Both the position numbers and the translations under genes were made by a program. Shown piece by piece: positions 1,456 through 16,315 of a DNA stretch of 17,512 bases. This DNA comes from Burkholderiales bacterium UBA954. Its GTDB lineage: Bacteria > Pseudomonadota > Gammaproteobacteria > Burkholderiales > Burkholderiaceae_A. Position 1 is the first letter of the stretch. Each line of letters starts with the position of its first letter. Under the pieces are notes generated by a model. The model made no database searches. It was not told the origin of the DNA and saw only the letters and a program-made list of their open reading frames with translations. Location of the stretch: positions 1 through 17,512 of the forward strand of contig DBCQ01000002.1 in NCBI GenBank assembly GCA_002293155.1, given 5' to 3'.

Positions 1456-1567
1456 GGCTGCCTTAGGCGGCAGATGGTCTGCTAAGAAAAATATCCAAAG
1501 CCTCATATCCATTCGATAGCCCACAGTGTTGAAAGATTATTGCTATCAGGAAGAGTGGTGCCAAAAG

Positions 1568-1596
1568 ATTACAATTTTTTGACAACTGAATGGCAC
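1568..1596 (-). promoter_or_regulatory. Pho-box-like array upstream of secreted phosphatase
   Basis: Reading the minus strand, three 7-mers start exactly 11 nt apart: GTGCCAT (1596-1590), TTGTCAA (1585-1579) and TTGTAAT (1574-1568), with an AAAA linker between the last two. The last two form an 18-bp site close to the PhoB consensus (CTGTCAT, 4 nt, CTGTCAT). It faces the metallophosphatase gene. I see no convincing -10 at the expected distance. Confidence 0.6.
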
Positions 1597-1650
1597 TGCA
1601 CACTCTTCGCGACACAATCTAGGCGATGTGCAGGTACTCGACTGAAATAT

Positions 1651-1682
1651 TTGTAATAAATGCGTCATGGAATCTTCATAGT
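1651..1682 (+). promoter_or_regulatory. Pho-box-like promoter of the phosphonate operon
   Basis: TTGTAAT (1651-1657), linker AAAT and GCGTCAT (1662-1668) form an 18-bp Pho-box-like element in the orientation of the phosphonate operon. A -10-like CATAGT lies at 1677-1682, 8 nt after the box, the position expected for a PhoB-activated sigma70 promoter. Transcription would start near 1690, giving a leader of about 10-15 nt. That may explain the absence of a clear Shine-Dalgarno before the first gene. Confidence 0.6.
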
Positions 1683-1702
1683 GTAAGCGTCTAATTGTCT
1701 GG

Positions 1703-2257
1703 ATGAGACATTTCGAGTCAAAGGTATTCGACCTTTATCAGAATCGCGGTTCACTTCAATATCAGGGCGAGGCTCTTGACCAGCTAAGCCATGGCTGGTT
1801 GTGCGCTAAGAACGCTCGTATAAGCTCCGCATCCTCCGCACTCTGTTTGGCAGCTTTTCTTCATGATATCGGCCACCTCTTTAGTGAGCATGAAACCCCC
1901 ACTCTCGAGGCAATCAATGACCGTCACGAAATGCGAGGGGCAGATTATCTCAAAGTAGGGTTTGCGGATTCAGTGACTGAGCCGATTCGATTGCATGTAC
2001 AGGCCAAGCGGTACCTGGTCGCATCAACCCCAGGTTACCTTGAATTGCTCTCGGAAGACAGCGTTCGGAGCCTTGCGCTCCAGGGCGGCCCGATGCCCCT
2101 GCACGAGCGCCGGCATTTTGAGACTCATCCGTACAGCAAGGACGCGATTCGATTGCGGCTATGGGACGAGCAAAGCAAGCAGCGGCACTTGGTGCCCATA
2201 TCAAAAAAGGAAATGCTCTCTGATTTGCGTCTATTAATTTCTGAGGTGTGCAATTGA
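1703..2257 (+). CDS. phnZ: PhnZ-like HD-domain mixed-valent diiron oxygenase
   Basis: A 184-residue HD-domain protein of the kind found in phosphonate degradation operons (TIGR03276-like). PhnZ cleaves the C-P bond of 1-hydroxy-2-aminoethylphosphonate oxidatively, giving glycine and phosphate, using a diiron centre. The residues recalled for PhnZ are present with matching spacing: Tyr20 and Glu23 (substrate loop), His30, the HDIGH core (His54, Asp55, His58), His75, His98, Lys102 and Asp155 in RLWDEQSK. This makes an active oxygenase more likely than a simple phosphohydrolase. Its usual partner PhnY, a 2-oxoglutarate hydroxylase, is not in the window, so the substrate is uncertain. It is the first gene of the operon, behind a Pho-box-like promoter, and overlaps phnC by 1 nt. 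The start ATG has no obvious Shine-Dalgarno. Confidence 0.85.
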   Translation: MRHFESKVFDLYQNRGSLQYQGEALDQLSHGWLCAKNARISSASSALCLAAFLHDIGHLFSEHETPTLEAINDRHEMRGADYLKVGFADSVTEPIRLHVQAKRYLVASTPGYLELLSEDSVRSLALQGGPMPLHERRHFETHPYSKDAIRLRLWDEQSKQRHLVPISKKEMLSDLRLLISEVCN

Positions 2258-3120
2258 TGACCTACCCATCGATCGGTCTGCATCGTGTCTCAAAAACCTT
2301 TTTCCGTCCGAACTCGCCAACCACCCAGGCCTCCGGCTGCCAGGCATTGCGTTCCGTCTCTTTTCAGATTCTGCCGGGAGAGCGTGTGGCGCTACTTGGC
2401 GCATCTGGGTCAGGAAAATCTACCCTTATTAGGCTTCTCTGCGGTCTCGAAGCGCCCGATACAAACCAAGGCGAGATTTTAATTGAAGGCGTTCCCCTTT
2501 TTAGGGCTGGATGCCGGGCTAGCCGCAGCGCATTCGGGCATGCCCGAGCCGCTACAGGAGTCATATTCCAACAATTTAATCTCGTAGGGCAGCTCTCGGT
2601 GCTGGAAAATGTACTCGTTGGTCAATGCGCATCACTCCCTATCTGGCGCGCTATCGGTCGTAATTTCTCCAGAGATGCTCGCGCGATTGCTTTAGATTGC
2701 CTCGAGAAGGTGGGCTTGGCAGACAAAGCGGATCAACGTGCATCCACCCTATCTGGGGGCCAGCAGCAGCGCGTGGCAGTCGCCAGGGCGCTGGCAAAAG
2801 GCTCGAGAATCATACTGGCTGACGAGCCAGTAGCCTCTCTTGATCCTGCATCTTCCCGGCGTGTAATGAAGATTCTGTGCGATCTTGCAGCCCAATTTGG
2901 AATCACTCTGTTAGTGAGCCTGCATCAGACGGAGGTCGCGAAGCAATTCTGTTCACGTGTCATTGCTCTGCGCCAGGGAGAATTAGTTCTCGACTCTCTA
3001 ACCACTGAACTCTCAGAGACCGTGCTACGCAATCTCTACGGAGTCAATGCAGAGGAGCTATTGACCACTTCTTCGGGCGGTTTTGATGTTGTTGATTCAG
3101 AAGTTCTAAGTGTTGCTTAA
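2257..3120 (+). CDS. phnC: Phosphonate ABC transporter ATP-binding protein PhnC
   Basis: A 287-residue ATPase that powers phosphonate import with PhnD and PhnE. Visible motifs are Walker A (GASGSGKST, 48-56), the Q-loop (FQQFNLV), the ABC signature LSGGQQQRVAVARAL, Walker B (IILADEP) with D-loop SLDP, and the H-loop (SLHQ). The insertion between Walker A and the Q-loop (GCRASRS...) and the VLENVLVG segment are typical of PhnC. The start is set at the ATG whose first base is the last base of the phnZ stop codon (TGATG), a translational-coupling overlap; TGAGG at 2242-2246 may serve as Shine-Dalgarno. An upstream GTG at 2248 is in frame but less likely. The assignment to PhnC rests on family motifs plus the adjacent phnD and phnE. 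Confidence 0.93.
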   Translation: MTYPSIGLHRVSKTFFRPNSPTTQASGCQALRSVSFQILPGERVALLGASGSGKSTLIRLLCGLEAPDTNQGEILIEGVPLFRAGCRASRSAFGHARAATGVIFQQFNLVGQLSVLENVLVGQCASLPIWRAIGRNFSRDARAIALDCLEKVGLADKADQRASTLSGGQQQRVAVARALAKGSRIILADEPVASLDPASSRRVMKILCDLAAQFGITLLVSLHQTEVAKQFCSRVIALRQGELVLDSLTTELSETVLRNLYGVNAEELLTTSSGGFDVVDSEVLSVA

Positions 3121-3144
3121 CTGTAAATTTAAAGGAGAGTTTTG

Positions 3145-4098
3145 ATGACTAAAAATCTTGTGCGTTTTTTTGCGACGATGCTACTTCTCGTAACAGCCCC
3201 CTTTGCTATTGCAAAAGAGATTTCATTTGGAATTATCTCAACCGACTCAGCGGCGGCGCAGCGCGACCGCTGGGAGCCATTCTTTCGTGATATGGAAAAA
3301 AAGACCGGTCTTACTGTGAAATCTTTTTATGCATCAGATTACGCCGGCGTAATCGAGGCTATGCGTTTTAATAAGGTGCAAGTAGCCTGGTACGGTAATA
3401 AAGCAGCTATGGAGGCCGTAGATCGAGCAAACGGGGAAATCTTTGCGCAGCTCATGTATGCAGACGGAACCTATGGATATCATGCCTTGCTAATTACCCA
3501 CAAGGATTCGCCATACAAATCCTTAGATGATGTGTTTGCTAATGGTAAGAACATCAATTTCGGGATCGGAGATCCAAATTCTACCTCGGGGTTTTTGGTG
3601 CCAACCTATTATGTATTCTCCCAACGTAAGGTCGATCCACGTGAGGTCTTTAAAACCGTGCGAAATGGTAGCCATGGTGCCAACATACAGGCCGTGCTCG
3701 CTAAGCAGCTTGATGTTGCCACCAATAACACGGAAGACTACGGCCGCCTTGAGGCAACAAAGCCGGATCAAGCCAGTCAGATTCGAGTGATTTGGAAGAG
3801 CCCACTTATCCCGAGTGACCCCTTCGTTTGGAGAAAGGACCTCGATTCCGCCTCCAAAGAGAAAATCAGAAATTTTGTTCTGAACTATGCCAAGACAGAT
3901 CCCGCTGAAAAGCTGATTCTGAAGAATATATACAACTATGGTGGATTCAGAGCCTCTACTAATGCTCAGCTTAATCCAATTCGGCAGCTCGAGCTATTCA
4001 AAGATAGGCGCAAGATCGAGTCTGATTCGGCGATGTCTGTCGCAGAGAAAACCGTCAAACTCGCAGAGATTGATAAAGCTTTAGCTGCTATTAAGTAG
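3145..4098 (+). CDS. phnD: Phosphonate-binding periplasmic protein PhnD
   Basis: A 317-residue substrate-binding protein of the phosphonate importer. A signal peptide (residues ~1-23, ending AIA before KEISFG) directs it to the periplasm. It carries the phosphonate-pocket motif DPNSTSG, then [21 protein letters not shown], and later [13 protein letters not shown]. In E. coli PhnD the equivalent Ser/Thr and His hold the phosphonate group, while the Glu of NNTE and the Asp of PxDP hold the amine of 2-aminoethylphosphonate. Both acidic residues are kept here, so an aminophosphonate ligand is likely (inference). The start is the ATG at 3145, with AAAGGAG (3131-3137) 7 nt upstream, the best ribosome binding site in the operon, as expected for a binding protein needed in excess. 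A TTG just before it is ignored. Confidence 0.93.
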
Positions 4099-4099
4099 T

Positions 4100-4912
4100 G
4101 TGAAACTAACACCCACAGCAAATTCCCTGGCGCTCGTGGAGACACGAGCCCAGGCGCAACGAAAGGGACTCTTCTATTATCTAAACTGGAGTGTCATTTT
4201 GTTGGTCTTGGCCTGGGCATGGCACGGAGCAGAGGTCCGTCCTTTAGATCTCATACGATATTCCGACAATATGGTCACGCTTGGGAGAGACTTTTTTCCC
4301 CCAGATTTTCGGGACTACCGTCTCTACGTTACGGAGATGATCGTAACTATCCAGATCGCGATATGGGGTACGGTCCTTGCTGTGCTCGCGGCAGTTCCTT
4401 TCGGATTGCTGAGTTCGGCCAATTTGGTTCCCGGATGGGTCTATCAGCCTATACGACGTCTCATGGACGCCCTACGTGCCGTCAATGAAATGGTCTTTGC
4501 CCTGATCTTCATTGTCGCTGTCGGACTCGGGCCTTTTGCTGGAGTAATGGCTTTATTTGTACACACCACAGGGACACTCGCGAAGCTGTTTTCGGAAGCA
4601 GTTGAGGCTGTTGATCCTCGGCCTATTGAAGGAATTCGCGTGTGCGGCGGGGGAAGACTCACCGAAGTAATCTTTGGAGTCATCCCGCAGGTACTTCCTT
4701 TGTGGATCTCGTTCTGCCTGTATCGATTTGAATCTAATGTCCGCTCGGCCTCAGTTGTGGGGATGGTGGGCGCTGGAGGAATTGGGACGATTCTGTATGA
4801 GGTGATCCGGTCGTTCGAGTACGCACAGACATGCGCTGTGCTTATTATTCTAATTGTCTCGGTAAGTGTAATCGACCTCACCTCAGCCTATCTTAGAAAA
4901 TTGGTTACATGA
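4100..4912 (+). CDS. phnE: Phosphonate ABC transporter permease PhnE
   Basis: A 270-residue inner-membrane permease of the phosphonate importer. Several hydrophobic segments are visible (for example near residues 30-45, 85-105 and 130-155, and a C-terminal one near 240-262). The cytoplasmic EAA-type loop that contacts the ATPase is seen in [20 protein letters not shown], followed by [35 protein letters not shown], a segment typical of PhnE. It starts at a GTG one nucleotide after the phnD stop codon, without an obvious Shine-Dalgarno, so translation is probably coupled to phnD. There is one permease gene only; some phn operons carry two, but a homodimer of one PhnE is common. Confidence 0.92.
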
Positions 4913-4934
4913 GAAATTGGTTTGGGCAGTAAAT

Positions 4935-5987
4935 ATGCAGATAATTATTGATAGTGGCGCGATTAGCGAGATAAAAGACCTCTACCTGGATCGCCGGGCC
5001 TTAGTCCTGATTTACAGTCTGGATAATCAGCCGCTACTTGAAAAAGTCTCGGGATTACTTGGGGCAAGACTGCTCAGATTTGTGGCCATCAATGAGTCGC
5101 TGCCCTCTATTGAGTATGTCTCGGCGATGAGAAATCAAATCTGGAAAAGCCTCAATCCCGATAAAACTTTTATCCTCGCTATTGGGGGGGGAACTGTTTT
5201 AGATACTGCAAAAGTTGTCCGATTCTCTCCTCCGATTGGGATAGAGTTAGATGAAGAGCTTGACGAACCAGTTAAAAGTGGTCGAAATCCAATTCCTCTT
5301 GTACTCTGTCCTACAACGTCGGGGACTGGGAGCGAGGTAAGCAATACAGCGACACTCTGGAATTTTTCGGGGGGGTCAAAGCACTCCTTTTTCGGGCCCG
5401 ATGTAGTTGGCGATATTGCGCTAATCGATCCTGAATTGACGATGACTCTCGGGCCAATCGAGACTCGCAATGCCGCAATCGATGCACTCTCCCATGCGCT
5501 GGAGTCAATTTGGAATAAGAACCGTAATGACGAAACCTTAAGGCTCGCCATTGAGGCGGCTCGCTTGATTATTAATGCACTGCCGATTGTGCTAACTGAT
5601 CTAAAGAGCCTCAAGGGCCGCGAAAAACTGAGTATAGGGTCGCTGCGGGCGGGTCAGGCGATGTCAGTAACACAGACTTCTCTCGCACATGCGCTGTCCT
5701 ATGAAGATACGCTCAGTCTGCGACTCCCCCATGGCGAGGCAGTGGGGCGTTGGCTTCCCGTGGTCTACCACAACGCGCTCTCTTCGGACAGGACAGCCGC
5801 ACGCGCCCTATCGAAGGCCTTAGGGTCTTCGATTACTTCTGCTAAGGAGTTGGCATTGTGGCTGGAGAGCATGGGACTCAGAACCGTAAACCCTTATCAG
5901 TCGGATCCGACAATTCAAAATCGAATAACTCAAGCGTTATCAAGCACTCGAGGTCAGACCTTCAGCGGAGAGTTGCACTTTGGCTAA
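4935..5987 (+). CDS. Phosphonate-associated iron-containing alcohol dehydrogenase
   Basis: A 350-residue group III (iron-dependent) alcohol dehydrogenase, most like the subgroup found in phosphonate operons (TIGR03405-like). The nucleotide-binding motif is GGGTVLDTAK (84-93), followed by PTTSGTGSE (126-134). The metal ligands are Asp183 and His187 in IDALSHALE, His252, and His266 in LPHGEA, so it looks catalytically intact. In this operon the likely reaction is interconversion of 2-hydroxyethylphosphonate and phosphonoacetaldehyde, the PhnX substrate. That is inferred from context and from PhpC-type enzymes of biosynthesis, which run the reverse reaction. The ATG at 4935 is chosen; an in-frame TTG at 4917 is possible and neither has a strong Shine-Dalgarno. 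The gene contains two poly-G tracts, of 8 and 7 G. It overlaps the next gene by 8 nt. Confidence 0.85.
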   Translation: MQIIIDSGAISEIKDLYLDRRALVLIYSLDNQPLLEKVSGLLGARLLRFVAINESLPSIEYVSAMRNQIWKSLNPDKTFILAIGGGTVLDTAKVVRFSPPIGIELDEELDEPVKSGRNPIPLVLCPTTSGTGSEVSNTATLWNFSGGSKHSFFGPDVVGDIALIDPELTMTLGPIETRNAAIDALSHALESIWNKNRNDETLRLAIEAARLIINALPIVLTDLKSLKGREKLSIGSLRAGQAMSVTQTSLAHALSYEDTLSLRLPHGEAVGRWLPVVYHNALSSDRTAARALSKALGSSITSAKELALWLESMGLRTVNPYQSDPTIQNRITQALSSTRGQTFSGELHFG

Positions 5988-7125
5988 CAGCATTCCTTAT
6001 GACATCGTTATTGCAGGCGCTGGCATTGTTGGCTTAGCACACGCCTACGAGGCAGCCCGAAGAGGCCTATCGGTAGCCGTCGTCGAGAAAGACTCACGGT
6101 GTGTTGGGGCCTCGATTAGGAACTTTGGGTTTATCACCATATCGGGACAGGCGCAAGGCGACACATGGCGCAGAGCGCGCTACTCTCGAGACATATGGAA
6201 CTCGATTGCACCGGACGCCGGCATAGAGGTAGTACACAGGGGGTCATGGATAGCCTGTCAGCGCCCCGAGGCGATTGAAGTTGCAAGAGCCTTTTTGCAA
6301 AGCGAGATGGGTGTGGGTTGTAAGCTTTATCAGAAGCCAGATTTTCCTCAGCTTCTTGCAGAGCACCCAGACGCAAATAGTCTCCTGTTGGAGGACATAC
6401 TCGGAGTGCTACACAGCCCATTAGAACTTAGAGTGGAATCAAGAACCGCAATTGAAAAACTTGCACATTGGTTAGAAGAGAGATGGAATGTGCAGTTTTT
6501 TTGGAATACGGAAGTGCTTGGAATTCGGAAACCGGGGGTGCAAACTTCATCGGGGCCAATTCGTGCAGATCGCGTGCTTCTCTGCTGCGGTGGAAGTCTG
6601 AGTGGTATCGCAAAAACCGCGTTAGCTGACTATGATCTTAAGCTCTGTACCCTACAGATGTTAAGGGTTCGGCCAGCACCAGGGTTTCGTCTTCCAGGAT
6701 CAGTAATGACCGATAACAGCCTAGCAAGGTACTCAGGCTGGGCAGAACTGCCCGAGGCTGAGAAGCTCAAGGCCTGCATCAAGTCTGAGATGCCCGAGTA
6801 TCTTGAGGCAGGTATTCATCTTATTGCGGTTCAAAGCGCCGATGGAAGCCTCATCGTAGGCGATTCGCACGTCTACAGCGACTCGGAGACAGTATTTTCA
6901 AGCGCCGAGGTTGATCACTTAATACTTAACCTGGCGCGTAGTGTGCTCGACATTGGACAGGCAGAGATTGTCGAACGCTGGGCGGGAACCTACCCCGTAT
7001 GGCAGGGTGGGGACGCGTTGATTCATCGTCTTTCGCCCCGCGAATGCATAGCAGTTGTAACAAGTGGAACAGGTGCAAGCACCGCTTTTGGTCTTGCGAG
7101 AGACACTTTTGATATCTGGAGGTAA
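5980..7125 (+). CDS. FAD-dependent aminophosphonate oxidoreductase (TIGR03364-like)
   Basis: A 381-residue D-amino-acid-oxidase-fold flavoprotein. The N-terminal dinucleotide-binding fold reads VIAGAGIVG (10-18), with Glu36 ending the second strand (VVEKD) to bind ribose. The C-terminal part has WAGTYPVW and the FAD-binding SGTGASTAFGLA segment. This matches the family that recurs beside phosphonoacetaldehyde hydrolase. Characterised members oxidise N-methyl-2-aminoethylphosphonate, and some also 2-aminoethylphosphonate itself, to phosphonoacetaldehyde plus amine and H2O2. Here it lies directly before phnX and no phnW transaminase is in the window, so it may be the only supplier of phosphonoacetaldehyde from aminophosphonates (inference). 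It starts at TTG (5980), 8 nt inside the dehydrogenase gene, with CGGAG at 5966-5970 as Shine-Dalgarno. The cofactor family is clear; the exact substrate is not. Confidence 0.85.
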   Translation: MANSIPYDIVIAGAGIVGLAHAYEAARRGLSVAVVEKDSRCVGASIRNFGFITISGQAQGDTWRRARYSRDIWNSIAPDAGIEVVHRGSWIACQRPEAIEVARAFLQSEMGVGCKLYQKPDFPQLLAEHPDANSLLLEDILGVLHSPLELRVESRTAIEKLAHWLEERWNVQFFWNTEVLGIRKPGVQTSSGPIRADRVLLCCGGSLSGIAKTALADYDLKLCTLQMLRVRPAPGFRLPGSVMTDNSLARYSGWAELPEAEKLKACIKSEMPEYLEAGIHLIAVQSADGSLIVGDSHVYSDSETVFSSAEVDHLILNLARSVLDIGQAEIVERWAGTYPVWQGGDALIHRLSPRECIAVVTSGTGASTAFGLARDTFDIWR

Positions 7126-7129
7126 TAAA

Positions 7130-7936
7130 ATGATTAAAGCTGTTATTTTTGACTGGGCCGGAACTACTGTCGATTTTGGTAGCCGTGCCCCAATGGGCGC
7201 ATTCGTTAATCTATTCAAAGAGTATGGCATCGAGATTACTATCGAAGATGCACGGCGTCCGATGGGGGTCAATAAGTGGAACCATATTGATGAACTACTA
7301 CAGTTTCCCCATATTCAATCGCAATGGGTCAAGGTCTATGGAAGAATGCCCACATCAGTCGATGTGGACGAGATGTTGCAAGCATTCACCCCGATGAATA
7401 TGGAAAGTATTCGGCAATACTCCCAACTAATTCCGGGCGTACGCGAGGTGGTGACCTTGTTGCGGGCTCGTGGCATTCGAATTGGCGCAACGACTGGCTA
7501 CACCCGGGAATTAGCCAACGTACTCATGCCTTTGGCCGCAGAGCAAGGGTACGCTCCAGATGCGTGTGTCTGCGCAGGCGAGACAGAACAGGGAAGGCCT
7601 TCCCCGCAGATGGTTGCGCACTGTGCGAGCCTTTTGGGAATCTCAGACCCGTCAGAGGTAATTAAGGTGGACGATACCGTGCCAGGGCTTATGGAAGGAA
7701 TTAATTTTAATTGCTGGACGGTCGGAGTTAGCGTTACTGGAAATGCAATGGGATTATCGCTTGAAGAGTATCAAGACTTGCCAGACTCGGATCGTACCCT
7801 GAAAGAGAATCATGCGCGACAGGAGTTACAACAGTGTCAACCCACCGTTGTCATCGACAGTGTTGAAAATCTACTGCCTGTAGTCGATGAGATCAACGAT
7901 CGAATTATTAGCAAGAAGCGATCGGCAGCTGCATAA
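7130..7936 (+). CDS. phnX: Phosphonoacetaldehyde hydrolase (phosphonatase) PhnX
   Basis: A 268-residue HAD-superfamily enzyme that hydrolyses phosphonoacetaldehyde to acetaldehyde and phosphate, the C-P-breaking step of the pathway. The HAD nucleophile is Asp8 in FDWAGTTVD, with the aspartate-to-alanine change (DWAG) typical of phosphonatases. The cap domain contains RRPMGVNKWNHI, in which Lys49 is the Schiff-base lysine that separates true PhnX from other HAD proteins. Motif II is GATTGYT, motif III lies near GRPSPQM, and the acidic motif IV is KVDDTVPG. The ATG at 7130 has GGAGG-type sequence (7118-7122) upstream, overlapping the stop of the preceding gene. The 3' end overlaps the convergent phosphatidylserine decarboxylase gene by 29 nt and no terminator is visible. 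Confidence 0.95.
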   Translation: MIKAVIFDWAGTTVDFGSRAPMGAFVNLFKEYGIEITIEDARRPMGVNKWNHIDELLQFPHIQSQWVKVYGRMPTSVDVDEMLQAFTPMNMESIRQYSQLIPGVREVVTLLRARGIRIGATTGYTRELANVLMPLAAEQGYAPDACVCAGETEQGRPSPQMVAHCASLLGISDPSEVIKVDDTVPGLMEGINFNCWTVGVSVTGNAMGLSLEEYQDLPDSDRTLKENHARQELQQCQPTVVIDSVENLLPVVDEINDRIISKKRSAAA

Positions 7937-8789
7937 TTGGCTCACCCATTCTCAAACGCTGACCAATCGCCAGATGGGGGTTAAATTCAAATTCGGGTGG
8001 TGTAATCATGATGATCGTTGACCCATGCTCAAACCATCCCATCTCATCTCCCCGATTGAAGCGTCGGCCAGATTCGAGAGTTAGACCATTCGGGGATTTG
8101 CAATTCAATGTCGCATTTATCCCGTGAATTCGAATACCTGCAACCAAGATCGCAGCCACCGGAATCATGATAATCGGGGTGCTCTTCTGTCCTATCGAAA
8201 GCTCTAGTATCGCGCGCTCGTTCTTGCAAAATAGGCTTTCCACTCTCTTTAATGCAATAGGATTGACATTCCATGTATCACCGGAGATGTAACGCACACG
8301 CTGGAGCTGCCCATCCTCCGGCGCGTGAAATCGGTGATACATCGATGAGGTAATGCGAATTGTAAGAAAGCGGCCGTTTTGCCAAGTTTTCACTAGGCTC
8401 TCGGTTAGCAACAGATCCTTGAGAGAATACGGAAAACCTTTAGCCTGAAAAAGCTGTTGGTCTTTAATCATGCCAAACTCCCCAACGATTCCGTCGCATG
8501 GGCTAATGAGGGTATCTGGGTCACCGCAGATCGGTCGGGCTCCAGGCAACAACTCTCGAATGAAGCAGTCGTGTACGCTTTTAAACCTCTTCTGTCGGGC
8601 CTCTTCGAGTTTGAGATTCGCAAATAGCCCCCAGAGGAAAATGGACACTCGGACAATCAGCGGGTGCTCAACTCGGCTAAACCTCCCCATAAGCCTTGTG
8701 GCAAGCGCGCGAGGAATTCGGTTGGTGAGCAGGAAATTTATATCCTCTAGCAGGAGAAGAGTTTTTAGGGTTTTTACAAAAGAAATCAT
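7908..8789 (-). CDS. psd: Phosphatidylserine decarboxylase, HGST-type cleavage site
   Basis: A 293-residue pyruvoyl-dependent decarboxylase that converts phosphatidylserine to phosphatidylethanolamine at the membrane. The catalytic triad aligns with the E. coli enzyme: Asp99 in SPCDGIVGE, His155 in YHRFHAPEDG and Ser257 in HGST (255-258). The precursor should cleave itself between Gly256 and Ser257, giving the pyruvoyl cofactor and a short alpha chain of about 37 residues. The usual LGST is replaced by HGST. The segment before it (PVAAILVAGIRI) is hydrophobic, but its sequence departs from the common VGATNVGSI. ATG at 8789 is the only good start, with a weak Shine-Dalgarno. A Pho-box-like array belonging to the divergent aminotransferase begins 2 nt upstream. 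This could be the housekeeping enzyme or a specialised paralogue. Confidence 0.85.
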   Translation of the reverse strand: MISFVKTLKTLLLLEDINFLLTNRIPRALATRLMGRFSRVEHPLIVRVSIFLWGLFANLKLEEARQKRFKSVHDCFIRELLPGARPICGDPDTLISPCDGIVGEFGMIKDQQLFQAKGFPYSLKDLLLTESLVKTWQNGRFLTIRITSSMYHRFHAPEDGQLQRVRYISGDTWNVNPIALKRVESLFCKNERAILELSIGQKSTPIIMIPVAAILVAGIRIHGINATLNCKSPNGLTLESGRRFNRGDEMGWFEHGSTIIMITPPEFEFNPHLAIGQRLRMGEPIMQLPIASC

Positions 8790-8790
8790 T

Positions 8791-8819
8791 TGGTCATCAC
8801 TTCGTCATGTTTGCGTAAT
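8791..8819 (+). promoter_or_regulatory. Triple Pho-box-like array upstream of aminotransferase
   Basis: Three 7-mers start exactly 11 nt apart on the plus strand: TGGTCAT (8791-8797), TCGTCAT (8802-8808) and GCGTAAT (8813-8819). They face the aminotransferase gene, whose strong Shine-Dalgarno AAAGGAGGG lies at 8836-8844. A weak -10-like CAACAT lies at 8827-8832. The first unit begins 2 nt from the start codon of the divergent decarboxylase gene, so a bound regulator would sit on that gene's leader or promoter. Confidence 0.6.
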
Positions 8820-8851
8820 ACAAATACAACATCGCAAAGGAGGGCTTTTGG

Positions 8852-10516
8852 ATGGATGGACAGATTTTGGTAGGAATTACCTCGGCTGCAATATTGGCAA
8901 CAGGTCTCTACAAGGGCTACCGAAGACTCAAGCTCTCGAGAGCAAAATACCCCTCGTTGACTGGGCACTCCCGAATGGCCAAGCTGTTCACAGGCTTGAT
9001 TCCAAACTATGTCTACCCCGAGGACTCTTGGCTTAATCGCGATGGCGTGCACGAGGTAGTAGCCACCCGTCGGCGAGGCGCCTTTAGTCAACTGGTCTCC
9101 GACCTGGAGCAGAAGTGCCCTAGAACCCTTGCCGCAACCGACGCTATCGCTCCGCGGATCTCCGATATTCAGTTCACGCGACGCTATCGAATCCCTTTTC
9201 AGTTTCGAAATGCAAGTGTCAAGAAGCTCCAGATTGGCAACGTCTGGGAGTCGAGTCACGGGTCTTGGCTTGTCGATCTCGATGGCAATCGATATCTCGA
9301 TCTCAGCGGCTCCTACGGAGTAAATTTGTTCGGTCTTGATTTCTATAAGTCCACTATCAACGAGGCAGTGGACAATGCTAAGGATCTCGGCCCCTTCCTT
9401 GGTGGCTATCACCCCAGCATCGTTCGAGTCACAGAAGATCTGTTGGCGATTTCGGGGATGGATGAAGTCTCTTTTCATATGTCCGGCACCGAGGCAGTTA
9501 TGCAGGCGGTTCGCCTTGCCCGTTACCACACCGGTAAGCGCCGCCTCGTAAGGTTTTGCGGGGCCTATCACGGCTGGTGGGACGATGTACAGCCCGGGCC
9601 CGGAAATCCTATGCCGCCCTCTCGCCAGACTCTGACCCTCCGGGAGATGCATCAAAGAACGCTTGACTATTTGGCGACGAGTAAAGACGTCGCCTGCGTT
9701 TTGATCAATCCAATTCAAGCCATGCATCCTAATAAGGCCGCTCCAACCGACTCGATGCTCATTGATGGGCAGCGTCATGTTGAATTCAACCGTGAGGCCT
9801 ATTCGGCCTGGCTTTCCGCTCTTCGCTCGGTCTGTGACGCTCGGGGAATTGTCATGATTCTTGATGAGGTGTTCTTGGGCTTTAGGCTCGCCAAAGGGGG
9901 CGCCCAAGAGTATTTCGGTGTTCGAGCGGATTTGGTAACTTACGGGAAGACCCTTGGCGGCGGTTTTCCTGTCGGCGTGCTTTGCGGCAAGTCTAGCCTG
10001 ATGCGTCGGTTCAAAGAAGGTCGCCCGGCAGATATCTGCTTTGCGCGTGGTACGTTTAACGCGCACCCCTATGTACTTACTGCGATGCAAGCCTTCCTCG
10101 ATAGAACTAAGAGCCCCGAAATCAAAACTCTCTACGCTGAGATGGAGGTTTTGTGGACTGCTCGTCGGGAGCGGCTGAACCGTCAGCTGGCAGAGCGCCA
10201 ACTGCCCTTGAGATTCGAAGGAATGCCAACAGTCTGGTCGCTGATTTTTACTCGTCCAGGTCGATATCATTGGCTATTGCAGTTCTACCTGAGGCGAGAA
10301 GGTATTGTGCTGAGTTGGGTTGGTACCGGCCGCCTGATTTTCAATCTGCAGTTTTCCGAGCAGGAATTTGAGGAATTTAGCCATAAGTTGTTTGCTGCGG
10401 CATTGCAATTTCAACAACATGGCTGGTGGGCCGGCTCCCCGCATCGCGGGGAGGCTGGACGTATTCGCAGGCAGATACTAAAAGAGCTTCTGATCAATCG
10501 ATTTAAGAGTGCTTAA
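8852..10516 (+). CDS. Membrane-anchored class III PLP aminotransferase
   Basis: A 554-residue protein, about 100 residues longer than typical class III (glutamate-1-semialdehyde aminotransferase-like) enzymes. Residues ~5-20 (ILVGITSAAILATGLY) form a hydrophobic segment followed by basic residues (KGYRRLKLSR), a likely N-terminal membrane anchor with the enzyme on the cytoplasmic side. The catalytic part from ~120 has SGTEA (211-215), AYHGWW (238-243), LDEVFLGFR (Asp338 for the PLP ring nitrogen) and TYGKTLGGG (Lys366 for the PLP Schiff base). It looks intact, with an added C-terminal basic tail. The substrate is unknown. The membrane anchor, the Pho-box-like promoter and lipid-enzyme neighbours suggest an amino-lipid or lipid-precursor substrate (inference). 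It starts at ATG 8852, 7 nt after AAAGGAGGG. Its 3' end overlaps the convergent Mpo1-like gene by 14 nt. Confidence 0.85.
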   Translation: MDGQILVGITSAAILATGLYKGYRRLKLSRAKYPSLTGHSRMAKLFTGLIPNYVYPEDSWLNRDGVHEVVATRRRGAFSQLVSDLEQKCPRTLAATDAIAPRISDIQFTRRYRIPFQFRNASVKKLQIGNVWESSHGSWLVDLDGNRYLDLSGSYGVNLFGLDFYKSTINEAVDNAKDLGPFLGGYHPSIVRVTEDLLAISGMDEVSFHMSGTEAVMQAVRLARYHTGKRRLVRFCGAYHGWWDDVQPGPGNPMPPSRQTLTLREMHQRTLDYLATSKDVACVLINPIQAMHPNKAAPTDSMLIDGQRHVEFNREAYSAWLSALRSVCDARGIVMILDEVFLGFRLAKGGAQEYFGVRADLVTYGKTLGGGFPVGVLCGKSSLMRRFKEGRPADICFARGTFNAHPYVLTAMQAFLDRTKSPEIKTLYAEMEVLWTARRERLNRQLAERQLPLRFEGMPTVWSLIFTRPGRYHWLLQFYLRREGIVLSWVGTGRLIFNLQFSEQEFEEFSHKLFAAALQFQQHGWWAGSPHRGEAGRIRRQILKELLINRFKSA

Positions 10517-11123: not shown

Positions 11124-11184
11124 TTACCTCTCCCATTTCGTTGGTGGATCAAAGCCGGCCAGATTCGGGGGCTCTGACAGCCTG

Positions 11185-11218
11185 ACTATGCCGAGAATGC
11201 ATGTCAAATTGATGACAT
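11185..11218 (-). promoter_or_regulatory. Pho-box-like promoter of the Mpo1-like gene
   Basis: On the minus strand ATGTCAT (11218-11212), linker CAAT and TTGACAT (11207-11201) form two 7-mers 11 nt apart. A -10-like CATAGT follows at 11190-11185, the same hexamer as in the phosphonate operon promoter. The element is also an inverted repeat (ATGTCA, 6 nt, TGACAT), so a different dimeric regulator cannot be excluded. Confidence 0.5.
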
Positions 11219-11248
11219 CTCGATGATGAAATACAAAGATTTTTAATT

Positions 11249-11303
11249 TTGTAATAAAAAGTTAGTCTAACTGTCATAGAACTGCTATCTCTCCTCCTTA
11301 ACA
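11249..11303 (+). promoter_or_regulatory. Four-unit Pho-box-like array and promoter of glycosyltransferase
   Basis: The core is CTGTCAT (11271-11277), AGAA, CTGCTAT (11282-11288), the closest match to the PhoB consensus in this window. Further positions at the same 11-nt period upstream hold TTGTAAT (11249-11255) and a poor unit AGTTAGT (11260-11266). A -10-like TTAACA lies at 11298-11303, 9 nt after the core. Transcription would then start near 11310, very close to the first possible start codon of the glycosyltransferase. Confidence 0.7.
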
Positions 11304-11311
11304 TCAGGCTC

Positions 11312-12496
11312 ATGGAGACAGCAGAACTTGATGTGATGTCATTTCCGGCGATTCATCGGCAGATGCGGATCGCCGTTGTTACCGAAACCTATCCACCAGA
11401 TGTAAACGGTGTGGCGCTGACTCTGCGACGGGTTGTAGAGGGGCTCCAGGGGCTTGGACATGACGTCTTTCTCGTTCGCCCGCGTCAATCGAATGACGCC
11501 AAGGCAGGCGACCCAGCTCACGAGCTTCTGGTTCAAGGTATGCCGATTCCAATGTACCCCGCTCTGAAAATCGGCTTTCCCGCGAAGCGCGCCCTGGTTA
11601 AGCTCTGGACCTCCCGGCGTCCTGACCTGGTTCACATCGCGACCGAGGGACCTCTTGGCTGGTCAGCAATACAGGCCGCTAAGAAGCTGAGAATTCCGAT
11701 GACATCGGATTTTCGAACAAACTTTCACGCCTACAGTGCTTTTTATGGCTTCCGTTGGATGAAGAGCACAATCTTCTCTTACATGAAGAAGTTTCATAAT
11801 GCGACACAATGCACGATGGTTCCAACCGCGGAGTTAAAGCAGACCCTCGCGGGCTTGGGGTTTCATCGCCTAATGGTTATCCCACGAGGGATTGATACGC
11901 AGCTCTTTGATCCAGTACGACGCTCAGAGGCACTCAGGAGTTCTTGGGGCGCAACCGCAGCAACCTGCGTGCTGCTGTCAGTTGGCAGACTAGCAGCAGA
12001 GAAAAATCTAAATCTAGTCTTGAAGGTATTCCATCAGGCACGAATGCAGAACCCCGATATCCTTCTCGTATTCGTGGGAGATGGTCCACTAAAAGAAAAG
12101 TTAGTGTCACAGTGCCCAGAGGCAATTTTCTGCGGTGTCCAACACGGTGAAGCGCTTGCAGCTCATTACGCAAGCGGTGACATCTTTTTGTTTCCAAGCC
12201 TGACGGAGACATTTGGAAACGTGACCCTAGAGGCGCTTGCAAGCGGCATCGCTGTGGTTGCGTTTGACTGCGCAGGGGCTCGCCAGTTAATCAGTTCAGA
12301 TGTCTCAGGCATCCTGTTGCCACCACAGGATGAATCCTCCTTCGTTGAAAGATCGATACGACTCGCGCAGGATGCGAATCAAAGAAATCGTCTCGGGATG
12401 GCCGCCCGCCAGGTGAGTCTCGAGAACCAATGGGCGACGGTTGTTAAACGAACCGAAGCCGTTATGCTACAGGTGTTGGCCGATAGAACCAGTTAG
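11312..12496 (+). CDS. GT4-family glycosyltransferase, probable glycolipid synthase
   Basis: A GT-B fold retaining glycosyltransferase of up to 394 residues. The N-terminal acceptor domain begins MRIAVVTETYPPDVNGVA, typical of the GT4 group containing SqdX/MgtA/Agt-like lipid glycosyltransferases. The donor domain has IPRGIDTQLFDP, LLSVGRLAAEKN, VFVGDGPL and the E-x7-E motif (Glu299 to Glu307 in TETFGNVTLEALASG). The probable role is sugar transfer to diacylglycerol or a related lipid, replacing phospholipids under phosphate limitation. That is inferred from the family and from the strong Pho-box-like site just upstream. The start is uncertain: ATG 11312 gives 394 residues but lies almost at the predicted transcription start; ATG 11336 or ATG 11363 (beginning MRIAVV) are alternatives, none with a good Shine-Dalgarno. 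The hydrolase gene follows after ~70 nt and may be co-transcribed. Confidence 0.82.
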   Translation: METAELDVMSFPAIHRQMRIAVVTETYPPDVNGVALTLRRVVEGLQGLGHDVFLVRPRQSNDAKAGDPAHELLVQGMPIPMYPALKIGFPAKRALVKLWTSRRPDLVHIATEGPLGWSAIQAAKKLRIPMTSDFRTNFHAYSAFYGFRWMKSTIFSYMKKFHNATQCTMVPTAELKQTLAGLGFHRLMVIPRGIDTQLFDPVRRSEALRSSWGATAATCVLLSVGRLAAEKNLNLVLKVFHQARMQNPDILLVFVGDGPLKEKLVSQCPEAIFCGVQHGEALAAHYASGDIFLFPSLTETFGNVTLEALASGIAVVAFDCAGARQLISSDVSGILLPPQDESSFVERSIRLAQDANQRNRLGMAARQVSLENQWATVVKRTEAVMLQVLADRTS

Positions 12497-12567
12497 AATG
12501 GGGCTAGAGAAATACCTCAGAGGATTCATTTTGTTGGCTTATAAGCATCTTTTTGAATCGTCTGCCA

Positions 12568-13422
12568 ATGAAGTTTAGACGCAGGCGATTTGAATTAACG
12601 GTTTTTGAAGCTGGTCGACATCGAAAGCTTATAGGAGAAGATATCGGCGAGGAACGCTCTCCAGATCTTTTCTTATGTCTTCCAGGGCTACTCGAAACAC
12701 ACGATAGTTTTGACGAATTTATTTCGTTTTTAGCACCCAACGCTCGAGTCATGGTTCTTGATTGGTGCGGTCGGGGCGACTCTGATTGGCTTGCCGCAGC
12801 CCATGACTATAAGATGAGTGTTTATCTTAGTGACTTGTGGCGTTTTTATACGTATGCGATGGGCGTTATGAGTAGCTGGGCATTCACAGGACAGGGCGAG
12901 CGTGATGCAATAACGGTATCAAAATCAGCTCGGATTCATCTTGTGGGGACGAGTATGGGCGGCTTACTTGCGGTTATGTTGGCAAGTGGCAAGCCTAAGA
13001 TGTTGGGGAGTGTAATCCTAAACGATATCGGGCCCTTATTGCCGTGGAGCGGTGTATTCGCGCTGATGACAAACATTAGTACTGCGAAGTCATCAAGTAT
13101 GAATACCCTTCGGGGTCCTGATCTTGCCAAGCAGCTCGATGTAGATCCTCAGTTGCTACGTGCAGTTCGACAACCAGCTCATCTTGACTTGCCGCACGAG
13201 AACCGATTATCCGGTGTCGACTTTAGTGATCGCTTTGCTGCAGTAACCACACCGATTCTCGTACTACGAGGAATGGACTCTGAGATTGTTAACGATTCAG
13301 TGGTGAAGCGAATGTTTGAGATTCATCCGCTTACCCGCATTCATGAGTGCCCAGAGAGCGGCCACCCCGTTGCCTATAGCAAAACGGTTTGTGAAGCCAT
13401 TCGGCACTTTATCGGTCCCTAG
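12568..13422 (+). CDS. Alpha/beta hydrolase
   Basis: A 284-residue cytoplasmic alpha/beta-hydrolase-fold protein without signal peptide. The oxyanion strand reads LCLPGLLETHDSF, then VLDWCGRGDSD. The nucleophile elbow is GTSMGG with Ser129, and the acid and base are probably Asp237 (LRGMDSE) and His266 (PESGHPV). The catalytic triad is complete. The substrate cannot be read from sequence. Its position 71 nt after the glycosyltransferase on the same strand, with no promoter recognised between them, suggests one transcript and possibly a lipid ester substrate (inference). ATG 12568 is preferred over an in-frame TTG at 12553; neither has a clear Shine-Dalgarno. It is convergent with the TPR gene and separated from it by 54 nt. 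Confidence 0.8.
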   Translation: MKFRRRRFELTVFEAGRHRKLIGEDIGEERSPDLFLCLPGLLETHDSFDEFISFLAPNARVMVLDWCGRGDSDWLAAAHDYKMSVYLSDLWRFYTYAMGVMSSWAFTGQGERDAITVSKSARIHLVGTSMGGLLAVMLASGKPKMLGSVILNDIGPLLPWSGVFALMTNISTAKSSSMNTLRGPDLAKQLDVDPQLLRAVRQPAHLDLPHENRLSGVDFSDRFAAVTTPILVLRGMDSEIVNDSVVKRMFEIHPLTRIHECPESGHPVAYSKTVCEAIRHFIGP

Positions 13423-13476
13423 TCTCCCCAGGCTTAAGCCCTGATTCAGAGCGATATACCTCTTTGCCTCTCCTCG

Positions 13477-13929
13477 TTACTTTCGTAACTTAAATGACAT
13501 GATGCCGGCCTCCAGATCACGGTACTCTTCGCAATCCAACGGGCAAGCCTTGCCTAGTCGGTTCAGAAGCGCTTCTGCACCAGTCAGATCGTTTCTGATC
13601 AACAGCAGCTCGCCGTAGTACTCCAGCGCACCACGATGCAGGGGATCCAATGCAAGGGCTGCTTTGTAGAAAACCTCGGCATTGCTCAGGTCGGGTGGTG
13701 ATTTCTTGCGTAAACTAAAACCCATCAGGTTATTCCAGTCGGCAGAATGTTTTTGTTCGGCTTTTTTAAGCAACTCAACCGCCTTGTCAAACTGTTCAGA
13801 CTTAATCGCTTCCCGTGCCTGATACATAGGGTGCGTTGGGAAGGTCTCTGGATCCGAAACGCTAGAGGTGTCTACGGCGTGCGCGGTGACTGTCACACTC
13901 CATGCAATCAGAAAGGCTAGACTTTTCAT
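13477..13929 (-). CDS. Small exported TPR-repeat protein
   Basis: A 150-residue protein with a signal peptide (MKSLAFLIAWSVTVTAHA, likely cleaved before VDTSS) and about two to three TPR-like helical pairs, for example AREAIKSEQFDKAVELLKKAE and AEVFYKAALALDPLHRGALEYYGELLL. It is probably periplasmic and may mediate protein-protein contacts; no specific function is recognised. The frame is open back to 14001, but the start at 13929 is chosen for two reasons: the signal peptide begins there, and a strong terminator hairpin for the upstream phoX gene (13957-13987) lies within the longer version. No Shine-Dalgarno or separate promoter is obvious, so it may be expressed by read-through from phoX. 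Confidence 0.7.
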   Translation of the reverse strand: MKSLAFLIAWSVTVTAHAVDTSSVSDPETFPTHPMYQAREAIKSEQFDKAVELLKKAEQKHSADWNNLMGFSLRKKSPPDLSNAEVFYKAALALDPLHRGALEYYGELLLIRNDLTGAEALLNRLGKACPLDCEEYRDLEAGIMSFKLRK

Positions 13930-13956
13930 ATTGGATATTGAGGAGGGGCTTGGCTG

Positions 13957-13987
13957 AAAAAATGGCCACGCACTCGGGCGTAGCCAT
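13957..13987 (-). terminator. Rho-independent terminator after phoX
   Basis: On the minus strand, ATGGCTACGC (13987-13978) and GCGTGGCCAT (13971-13962) form a 10-bp stem with one G-U pair around a 6-nt loop. The stem is followed directly by a T-run (13961-13957). The hairpin begins 36 nt after the phoX stop codon and is the clearest intrinsic terminator in the window. It separates phoX from the small TPR gene. Confidence 0.8.
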
Positions 13988-14022
13988 GTTAATACCCGCA
14001 TGGGGCAGCTGAACCCGTTCCG

Positions 14023-16248
14023 TTAGAGCCCGATCATTCCGCCATCCTTGCGGGTGATCACGATGGTGGCGGACCTTGGCCGACCGGGGTTGCCATACCC
14101 CTGGTTACCGGGCCAAGCACTCTGCGGTGGCGCCGATGCGGCCAGAGGCTTAGACAGCTCGCCCGGGTGCTGAATATTCACAAAGAGCGTTCGGCCATCA
14201 GCCGTTTCCGCAATACCGGTTACCTCTGCCCCGAGCGGAGCTACCAAAAAACGCCGAAGTTTTGCATCACCCAAGGCGGCTCCCAGAAAAGTTTCTTGTG
14301 TGCCCGTTTGCTCTACCCCATTGACTACCATCTTATTTTTGACGGTGACTTTTCCACCATCACCAACCTGACCAGGAATAGCGGCGAGCATCATGCAGTT
14401 TGTCTCATCGGTAAAGGCGCCATCATCCGTTTGAATCCAGCAAATTCCAGTTGCTTTACTGAACCAGAGCCCGTCTGGTGAAGAAAATGCATTTTTTGAT
14501 GAGAGACCGGATAAATTCGCATCACCCGAATCCTCTTCAGCACCAAATAGAAAAATATCCCAAGCGAAAGCTTTCGCGGTTGCTTTCTGATCAGCCTCTC
14601 TAAAACGAATAATATGACCATTTGGGTTTCCTGCGCCTTTGGTTCCATCTGGATCCATGTAGGCACGCGGATTTGCGGGATCTACCTTTGAGGGTGTTCT
14701 GTTCGCAGCACTATTATTGGTTAGTGCAAAGTAGACCTCACCGTTGCGATAATTCAGGGCACCCCACTCTGGGCGGTCCATTTTAGTCGCGCCAACAGCA
14801 TCCGCAGCATGCCGAATATTTACGAGCACATCCGCCTGATTTGCAAACTTGTAGGCGCTGTAATTAGCGAGTCTTGAGTCAGTTATAGTAAGTTCAAGCC
14901 ACTCACCCCGGCCAGTTGAGTCAAAGCGAGCAGCATAGAGCTTCCCCTCGCTGAGATACTTGTCGCCAGCGGCGATGCCGCCACCGATATCCCGGGGATC
15001 CCAGACCGCCGTGGTTACGAATTTATAAATATACTCATTTCGAGCATCGCACCCCATGTAAAACGCGAGGGGCTCGCCAGTCTTTGGAAGACTGCAGACA
15101 GCGGCTTCGTGTGCAAAACGACCCATTGCGATTCGCTTGGCGGGCGTTGCGTTGGGCGCTAATGGGTCAATTTCAACGTTATAACCAAAAGTGTTGGCTT
15201 CGTTACGAAAATCCTTCTCGGCATTGTTTCCTAAAGCCGCCAGATTCCAACGAGCAAAACGATCGTCTGTAGTCGACACAGTGTGCCAGCCCTGACTGAT
15301 TGCCTTTGAAGCATTTGCTGCAGGCGCTGCTGAGGCAACCCCATAGCGGCGTCTCGCGGCGATTTCCTTGGCGGGCAGCTCGGAACCAGAACCTGCCACC
15401 TGAAAGTAAAACGCCCAGTTCTCTTCGCAGCCAAGATATGTTCCCCACGGGGTCTTTCCATGCCCGCAATTATTCAAAGTACCGCGTGCCATAGACCCGG
15501 CAGTGTCCCAGCGGGTCACCATAAAGCTACGAATCTGATCGATTTGCGCCCGTGGGCCACTAATTCGCATCGGCGTTTGGGCAGTAACGCGACGGTTCAA
15601 CGGTGAGTTTCTTTCAATCCGCCAGCCCTCGGGTGTCTTCACAATCTCCACAATAGAAATTCCGTGTTGATTGATCTCCTTTAACACCTCAAGCTCTGGT
15701 CTAACACCGAGATCCCAGTCACCAAACTGAGTGAACTTCTTGCCGCTGATATTGTTCGACGTCTGGCCATTAGGATGCATAAAGTGCGCATCTGCTGAGC
15801 TCTCATGATTCACGCACAGAACTGCCCTTCCGGTCTCTTTCTCGGTGTAGCGGCCGTTGGCATCAATGTAGAAAATATCCATACCATCATGATGGTCCCC
15901 AATCCGGCGAGACCAGTCATCTAACTCAGCGCCTCGGTTGGTGTAAGCAGCAAGCGTTGCATCAATTGCATCGCCTGTAGCATGCAAGACACTGTACTGA
16001 TAGCCGGGCGGAAGGATCACATTATCAAGCAAGCTTTTTTCGACTGCAGGAAAGCCTAGCGCCTTAGGGATTGCTGCGGATCCGTAGTCGAGGGTTGCGC
16101 ACCCGGGCAGCACGGCCATTCCAGCAAGCCCCAGACCGCCGCGCAAAAGGCCCCGCCGAGCCGGGCTCTGGAGGGATTGCGCGAGGACATCTTGAAAATG
16201 AACGTTATCAGAGGTGTTACAAATGGGGTCAAGATCAGGGTGGGACAT
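14023..16248 (-). CDS. phoX: PhoX-type alkaline phosphatase, Tat-exported
   Basis: A 741-residue member of the PhoX family (PF05787, formerly DUF839), monomeric Ca/Fe-dependent phosphatases that release phosphate from many organic esters. The N-terminus is a twin-arginine signal: Arg31-Arg32 in SPARRGLLRGG, a hydrophobic stretch, then PGCA. Cys50 after LPG resembles a lipobox, so a Tat-exported lipoprotein is possible. The body carries family-typical segments such as CVNHE, CGHGKTPWGTYLGCEEN, GRFAHEAA, YMGCDARNEYIYKF and SSPDGLWF. The length is close to the family's usual ~700 residues. ATG 16248 has AAGGAG (16255-16260) 6 nt upstream. A Pho-box-like array lies at 16287-16315 and a strong terminator follows the gene, so it is probably a single-gene Pho unit. 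Confidence 0.92.
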   Translation of the reverse strand: MSHPDLDPICNTSDNVHFQDVLAQSLQSPARRGLLRGGLGLAGMAVLPGCATLDYGSAAIPKALGFPAVEKSLLDNVILPPGYQYSVLHATGDAIDATLAAYTNRGAELDDWSRRIGDHHDGMDIFYIDANGRYTEKETGRAVLCVNHESSADAHFMHPNGQTSNNISGKKFTQFGDWDLGVRPELEVLKEINQHGISIVEIVKTPEGWRIERNSPLNRRVTAQTPMRISGPRAQIDQIRSFMVTRWDTAGSMARGTLNNCGHGKTPWGTYLGCEENWAFYFQVAGSGSELPAKEIAARRRYGVASAAPAANASKAISQGWHTVSTTDDRFARWNLAALGNNAEKDFRNEANTFGYNVEIDPLAPNATPAKRIAMGRFAHEAAVCSLPKTGEPLAFYMGCDARNEYIYKFVTTAVWDPRDIGGGIAAGDKYLSEGKLYAARFDSTGRGEWLELTITDSRLANYSAYKFANQADVLVNIRHAADAVGATKMDRPEWGALNYRNGEVYFALTNNSAANRTPSKVDPANPRAYMDPDGTKGAGNPNGHIIRFREADQKATAKAFAWDIFLFGAEEDSGDANLSGLSSKNAFSSPDGLWFSKATGICWIQTDDGAFTDETNCMMLAAIPGQVGDGGKVTVKNKMVVNGVEQTGTQETFLGAALGDAKLRRFLVAPLGAEVTGIAETADGRTLFVNIQHPGELSKPLAASAPPQSAWPGNQGYGNPGRPRSATIVITRKDGGMIGL

Positions 16249-16286
16249 AGAGGGCTCCTTAAAAGCCTCTATTGAATGCCCTTACT

Positions 16287-16315
16287 ATGACAACCTGATG
16301 ATGGAAATATGACAA
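16287..16315 (-). promoter_or_regulatory. Triple Pho-box-like array upstream of phoX
   Basis: On the minus strand TTGTCAT (16315-16309), CCATCAT (16304-16298) and TTGTCAT (16293-16287) start exactly 11 nt apart. The outer two are identical and differ from the PhoB half-site CTGTCAT only in the first base. A -10-like CATTCA lies 8 nt downstream (16278-16273). This is consistent with classical Pho control of the phosphatase gene. Confidence 0.7.

Follow-up and report, generated by a model that had tools for sequence, protein, structure and literature searches.

PhoB-type arrays before a conserved four-gene block with a probable role in membrane-lipid remodelling in Burkholderiales

We analysed a stretch of 17,512 bases from Burkholderiales bacterium UBA954, here called the window, which is the complete contig C3 of a 1.61-Mb, 72-contig, 79%-complete genome. 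The window combines a phosphonate operon and a gene for the alkaline phosphatase PhoX with four genes that we call the block: a second phosphatidylserine decarboxylase (PSD2), a class-III aminotransferase (AT), an Mpo1-like protein and a GT4 family glycosyltransferase (GT4). Arrays of short boxes resembling the sites of the regulator PhoB stand before six transcription units. The genes are listed below, with HD standing for an HD oxygenase-like protein.

496..1524, minus strand: metallophosphoesterase-like protein with a probable signal peptide, 342 amino acids (name from GD/GDN/GDSH-type motifs read by eye)
1703..7936, plus strand: phosphonate operon (HD, PhnC, PhnD, PhnE, Fe-ADH, FAD oxidoreductase of TIGR03364, phosphonoacetaldehyde hydrolase of TIGR01422)
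7908..8789, minus strand: PSD2, the second phosphatidylserine-decarboxylase paralogue, whose start falls within the AT array
8852..10516, plus strand: AT with an N-terminal membrane-type helix, 554 amino acids
10503..11123, minus strand: Mpo1-like membrane-type protein, 206 amino acids
11312..12496, plus strand: GT4 family glycosyltransferase
14023..16248, minus strand: PhoX alkaline phosphatase

An earlier note on this DNA had described six arrays of CTGTCAT-like boxes with an 11-nucleotide (nt) period, and all six are present where it had placed them. If the register is shifted slightly, five of the six promoters consist of boxes, a gap of exactly 10 nt and a hexamer that matches TATAAT at 4 or 5 positions, as follows.

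1568..1596, minus strand: array before the metallophosphoesterase-like gene, 3 boxes, no good -10 (CACTCT), lacking in relatives
1651..1695, plus strand: array before the phosphonate operon, 3 boxes at 1651-1679 (the third TCTTCAT, 1673-1679), 10-nt spacer, -10-like TCTAAT
8780..8824, plus strand: array before AT, 2-3 boxes at 8780-8808, 10-nt spacer, -10-like TACAAA
11185..11229, minus strand: array before the Mpo1-like gene, 3 boxes at 11229-11201, 10-nt spacer, -10-like CATAGT
11249..11304, plus strand: array before GT4, 4 boxes at 11249-11288 (the last CTGCTAT), 10-nt spacer, -10-like TAACAT
16271..16315, minus strand: array before phoX, 3 boxes at 16315-16287, 10-nt spacer, -10-like TTCAAT

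The third box of the Mpo1 array is TCATCAT at 11223-11229. For AT, the register 8780/8791/8802 sets TACAAA 10 nt past the last box, but the matrix score falls to 5.5, compared with 7.7 for the claimed register. Because the -10 hexamers helped to choose these registers, they are no independent test of the geometry; the gap scan in relatives described below is. The earlier note had also stated that two arrays are followed by the same -10-like CATAGT. This hexamer does occur beside three of the six arrays (1677-1682, 11190-11185 and 16289-16284). Of these copies, the Mpo1 one alone occupies the -10 position and the other two overlap box ends, so we rejected CATAGT as a common -10. The -10-like hexamers of HD and GT4 end 7 nt before the listed ATG (1690-1703 and 11299-11312), and these two mRNAs may therefore be leaderless, or the true starts may lie further in.

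We scored the arrays with a matrix of E. coli PhoB half-sites and compared the best 3-box score with 5000 mononucleotide shuffles, each made from the intergenic region and strand in question. All six arrays score higher than shuffled intergenic DNA (3-box p at most 0.0046): 13.8 for the array at 1568-1596 (minus strand, p 0.0008), 11.2 at 1651 (plus, p 0.002), 7.7 at 8791 (plus, p 0.0046), 12.7 at 11201 (minus, p 0.0018), 12.9 at 11249 (plus, p 0.0014, with a 4-box p of 0.0002) and 19.7 at 16287 (minus, 0/5000 shuffles as high). Eight control tests covered the strand without a claimed array in two regions and, in three further intergenic stretches, both strands; the 3-box p was at least 0.13 in all but one, the exception being the minus strand of the TPR/abH1 intergenic region (p 0.018 with 2 boxes, 0.012 with 3 boxes). 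When the whole window is ranked by 3-box score, the claimed arrays take ranks 1-5 and 9, the AT array being ninth; the GT4 array, read in shifted registers, accounts for ranks 6-7, and a match within phoX coding DNA for rank 8. Genome-wide, the Pho-box consensus CTGTCATNNNNCTGTCAT, which is quoted in a passage of PMC8528852, gave 107 matches with at most 3 mismatches, against 63 from the reversed control. Stretches totalling 355 kb of the genome, chosen partly around matches to CTGTCATNNNNCTGTCAT, hold 27 sites with a 3-box score above 10.5, and open reading frame calls place 17 of them in coding and 10 in intergenic DNA. The five sites above 10.5 in the window are all intergenic, and the top score overall (22.6) is a coding match elsewhere in the genome.

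Relatives were collected by searching for the AT protein in 250 genomes of the order (E<=1e-60, 28 positive), in named genome contigs (157 relatives, the best 80 kept) and in 398 genomes across the phylum (E<=1e-80, 25 positive). The named relatives are mostly metagenome-assembled genomes titled Burkholderiales or its families, and from the titles we read them as largely freshwater. Seven loci with titles like Bordetella parapertussis and Akkermansia muciniphila (L082, L100, L111, L113, L122, L143 and L151) look mislabelled, as their block matches Burkholderiales loci. The relatives are related to one another, and the set includes duplicate loci (L058 and L149 look identical); the period and shuffle averages below are over unthinned regions, the motif search and the upstream-array counts used thinned sets, and the -10 gap scan was thinned in its first part.

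The 11-nt period, which the earlier note had identified as PhoB geometry, is reproduced in these relatives. The mean best 3-box score was 8.2 in the PSD2/AT intergenic region (103 regions including the window), against -2.2 in dinucleotide shuffles, and 10.9 in the Mpo1/GT4 intergenic region (83 regions including the window), against 0.0. Other periods tested between 8 and 22 gave means of at most -0.6 (PSD2/AT) and 5.3 (Mpo1/GT4). An expectation-maximization motif search without a PhoB prior returned TCAT-type boxes 11 nt apart in both cases: TnGTCATCATTTTGTCAT from 69 thinned PSD2/AT regions (occupancy 0.96) and TGTCATCAAATTTTCATG from 70 thinned Mpo1/GT4 regions (occupancy 0.98, the ceiling of the script). 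A lag test that uses no motif likewise has its maximum at 11 nt (z 3.4 for PSD2/AT and 4.7 for Mpo1/GT4). When the match to TATAAT was followed over gaps of 4-19 nt, leaving out regions with weak arrays or short ends, it peaked at exactly 10 nt in all three promoters (AT, 3.12 of 6 with 77/103 regions used; Mpo1, 2.55 with 65/83; GT4, 2.81 with 73/83).

Upstream arrays significant against shuffles at p<=0.05, counted without stretches shorter than 150 nt or with runs of N, precede AT in 53/70 cases, the Mpo1-like gene in 49/75, GT4 in 46/62, plcP in 42/67 (this pool included a stretch of the source genome, L161), phoX in 6/7 and phnC in 4/10. They are rare before PSD2 (7/73) and, at the same threshold, were found before other genes of phosphonate operons in 2/9 cases for HD and none for PhnE (0/8), HpnW (0/4), Fe-ADH (0/5) and PhnX (0/4). 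Before the metallophosphoesterase-like gene only 4/30 upstream stretches have an array, and one of the four is the window itself; the rows for this gene, HD and PhnC all include a stretch of the window (L191). Conservation is thus seen before AT, the Mpo1-like gene, GT4, plcP and phoX and is lacking for the array at 1568-1596, for PSD2 and for the inner phn genes. We do not count the metallophosphoesterase-like gene as a secure regulon member, since its array scores well in the window but its relatives lack one.

The genome encodes PhoB (TIGR02154, 350.9 bits, cut-off 296.2). As in PhoB-dependent promoters of the E. coli phoA/pstS type, the boxes are CTGTCAT-like with an 11-nt period, the -10 lies 10 nt past the last box, and the sites stand before phoX, phn and lipid genes. 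They differ in that the boxes are more degenerate (for example TGTCATCAAATTTTCAT) and several arrays have three or four boxes. The proposal that the arrays tie the region into one phosphate-starvation regulon is supported by the shuffles, the conservation and the PhoB gene, with the exception of the metallophosphoesterase array, which is not conserved. The pattern supports reading the arrays as genuine phosphate-starvation switches, ordinary PhoB-type sites that PhoB would bind and low phosphate would induce.

The grouping of PSD2, AT, the Mpo1-like gene and GT4 is conserved in Burkholderiales, and versions of it also occur in other Proteobacteria and in records that carry the title Verrucomicrobia. 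A PSD gene lies divergently beside AT in 102/107 loci of relatives, and a divergent Mpo1/GT4 pair is present in 82; we used these 82 because the total GT4 count (91/108) includes GT4 genes that are not beside Mpo1. Mpo1 was matched in 106/108 loci including the window, whose own copy (L053) has its Mpo1 hidden in the neighbour-gene hit list, which drops overlapping hits. Many of the relatives' loci are short or cut. Twelve loci from the phylum search were examined: PSD and Mpo1 are kept in 11, and a significant array precedes AT in 7, all of which belong to a single genus (g209). In L239 and L240, AT, a long GT4 protein, PSD and Mpo1 all run in one direction. The GT4 there is the C-terminal part of an 893-958 amino acid protein (L239:3674-6352, L240:4611-7484), the N-terminal half of which has no Pfam match and opens with DLHCHD, a motif similar to PHP domains when judged by eye. 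The next gene in L239 has Acyltransf_2 and GNAT domains, a combination also found in OlsF. On a Sphingomonas parapaucimobilis plasmid the order is PSD-AT-Mpo1-like and then a methyltransferase gene, with PmtA as its best NCBIfam match, below cut-off; a PmtA-like methyltransferase gene is also near the block in L238. At four loci (L106, L119, L122 and L130) phoX, the block and phn occur together as in the window in another order, like a reshuffled phosphate island. In genome G064, from the genus of the window, AT was not found and the order is GT4/Mpo1-PSD2-PhoX-like (L221, 7741-12802), flanked by a PhoU-like gene and, by eye, pst-transporter-like genes. Arrays scoring 21.4 and 19.4 occur there, and a third (12.9, p 0.0007) is on the opposite strand at the PSD2 start.

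PSD2 is a full member of the phosphatidylserine decarboxylase family (PF02666, 194.3 bits; TIGR00163, 162.2 bits with a cut-off of 111.75), and its GST motif, the self-cleavage motif of this enzyme, is kept in 96/99. AT keeps the YGK motif of the pyridoxal-phosphate lysine in 107/107 and has an N-terminal membrane-type helix in 86% of the 107 (residues 2-31 in the structure model). Sequence and fold searches of the PDB agree on its best match, the aminotransferase domain of mycosubtilin synthetase (6kfm), which puts an amine on a fatty acyl chain; AT differs in being a stand-alone protein with a membrane helix and is about 26% identical. Some relatives of AT are named glutamate-1-semialdehyde aminomutase (HemL) by one source and the pyridoxal-phosphate fold is the same, but AT has an extra N-terminal region with the helix and reaches only 171.8 bits of the 527.3 required; on this score we rejected the name. 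The Mpo1-like protein shares the His/Asn motifs of the Mpo1 2-hydroxy-fatty-acid dioxygenase family, with YHxxxxNxxxH and GHxx(F/Y)E kept in 98/98 relatives; its structure model is helical and confident (pLDDT 91.8), and a fold search against the PDB gave no match at E<=0.001. Other GT4 matches near the block, at nine loci, are 31-35% identical to the block GT4. Outside the block, the metallophosphoesterase-like protein has no Pfam or NCBIfam match at E<=0.001.

The block often has lipid genes nearby. PlcP (E<=1e-30) is found in 26/28 AT-positive genomes and 99/222 other genomes of the order (Fisher 8.7e-7), and in 16 of the 28 it lies within 15 kb on the same contig. Two PSD genes are present in 28/28 AT-positive genomes and 13/222 others (Fisher 1.9e-27); the plcP and second-PSD tallies were counted by hand. 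Among the 80 named-contig loci, single-linkage clusters of neighbours include plcP-like genes (39), the lysophospholipid transporter gene lplT (37), ugd (23), olsB-like genes (16) and phoX (9), and where the flanks are nearly full plcP occurs in 20/28 loci. LplT passes its equivalog cut-off (435.9, cut-off 297) and the ugd protein passes the nucleotide-sugar-dehydrogenase subfamily cut-off (465.6, cut-off 189.8). In the source genome, a four-box array (C50:72045-72084, which is L037:16046-16085; best 3-box score 21.7) lies at the start of a plcP-like metallophosphoesterase gene. A GT4 and an OlsB-like acyltransferase come after this gene, and together they form a lipid cluster of the PlcP-Agt type.

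The earlier note had predicted a phosphate-linked function for the aminotransferase and the Mpo1-like protein, and the shuffle scores and the conserved sites before AT, the Mpo1-like gene and GT4 support this. Since the neighbourhood of the block holds lipid genes, this function probably narrows to membrane-lipid remodelling. Starting from the sites, their geometry and conservation, the block and its lipid-gene neighbourhood, all of which were computed directly, we consider it likely that the arrays are PhoB operators and that the block adds a further branch to PlcP-type membrane-lipid remodelling. Under phosphate starvation, phosphorylated PhoB would bind the tandem 11-nt boxes and recruit sigma-70 polymerase to a -10 starting 10 nt past the last box, which would switch on phoX, the operon for phosphonate uptake and degradation, AT, the Mpo1-like gene and GT4. 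GT4 would then glycosylate diacylglycerol released from phospholipids, AT, the Mpo1-like protein and PSD2 would build or modify an amine-bearing lipid, and the membrane would retain its charge balance with less phosphorus. PlcP-Agt remodelling, as described in PMC4796936, PMC8528852 and PMC9239053, likewise has a Pho-boxed plcP with a GT4, and such a cluster is also found in this genome; what the block adds is a membrane-anchored AT, a second PSD and an Mpo1-like protein. In the main texts of these three papers neither the word "aminotransferase" nor the word "decarboxylase" occurs, and in the portions of the literature searched no description of the four-gene block was found, so the block is apparently undescribed. 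More tentatively, the block may make a phosphorus-free amino- or aminoglyco-lipid so far undescribed, with AT, as a stand-alone and membrane-anchored relative of the mycosubtilin aminotransferase, adding the amine to the lipid at the membrane and the same PhoB array setting the level of PSD2.

Several observations weigh against PhoB-controlled lipid remodelling by the block. AT is present in only 28/250 genomes of the order, L145 has AT without the other three genes, and L084, L086, L125, L156 and G147 have room for a GT4 beside Mpo1 and lack one. No significant array precedes AT in 5/12 of the phylum loci (L224, L225, L226, L228 and L235), and two AT-positive genomes (G147 and G135) are without plcP. 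The Mpo1-like protein scores 23.2 with PF06127, just under the gathering threshold of 24, the GT4 is below each cut-off among the 25 of 38 NCBIfam families listed, and the names plcP and olsB rest on resemblance below equivalog cut-offs.

How PSD2 would be regulated is a separate matter. Among the 75 of 98 loci with a 2-box score of at least 8, the AT array begins at a median of -6 nt from the PSD2 start codon (10-90%: -9 to +5), and at a median of -9 from the homology-projected start. PhoB would therefore sit on the PSD2 start, and one could imagine that it shuts PSD2 off while AT is on, which we regard as rather doubtful. The position of the array in most loci, the scarcity of arrays of PSD2's own and the opposite-strand array that G064 retains at the PSD2 start without AT all fit repression. 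However, PSD2 in G064 comes directly after Mpo1 behind a strong array, PSD2 in L239 and L240 is co-directional with AT, GT4 and Mpo1, and the opposite-strand array in G064 may be a relic. From these arrangements co-expression is expected in G064, L239 and L240, and because of them we keep PSD2 repression as a sub-hypothesis only.

The block could instead salvage phosphorus, with PSD2 and AT processing phospholipid head groups (for example phosphatidylethanolamine, with PlcP assisting its cleavage) and GT4 doing no more than re-use the diacylglycerol. The good standing of PSD2 within its family, by score and by the GST motif, and the frequent proximity of plcP and lplT would suit this, but AT has a membrane anchor and matches best to an acyl-chain aminotransferase domain and to aminomutases, and the versions near OlsF-like and PmtA-like genes, names not backed by scores above cut-off, hint at synthesis. 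On balance we think salvage unlikely. Binding by another OmpR-family regulator, for which the assembly offers a second Trans_reg_C response regulator (C1:9105-9317), is very improbable, as motif, 11-nt period and 10-nt spacing all follow the pattern of PhoB, phoX and plcP are preceded by the same arrays, and PhoB is encoded in the genome. It is hardly credible that the arrays are chance matches in AT-rich intergenic DNA: single scores are modest (7.7 for the AT array) and higher-scoring chance arrays do occur in coding DNA, but the shuffle tests, period controls, de novo motif and -10 geometry hold in about 70 non-redundant relatives per intergenic region.

Elsewhere in the source genome, an array at C46:7404-7432 (L035; score 11.9, p 0.0017) precedes genes for an ArsJ-associated GAPDH and ArsJ, both above their cut-offs, which suggests that arsenate defence is co-regulated with phosphate uptake. 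In G147 (L223), about 4 kb separate the block from a GAPDH/MFS pair that by eye looks the same as this one. Another array (L041:16371) is 199 nt before a gene with weak AddB/Cas4-type matches, and we take it as chance.

The sites themselves are ordinary PhoB-type sites, and the new part is the conserved block behind them. Cultured carriers of the block exist, for example Zwartia hollandica and Z. panacis (loci L119 and L130), so the candidate pathway is open to deletion and lipidomics. Replacing phospholipids under phosphate limitation is an important phosphorus saving for planktonic bacteria, and the known enzymes PlcP, Agt, Bta and Ols leave lipids and genes unexplained. A conserved four-enzyme block with PhoB-type sites, often beside lipid genes, is a direct candidate for a new lipid pathway.

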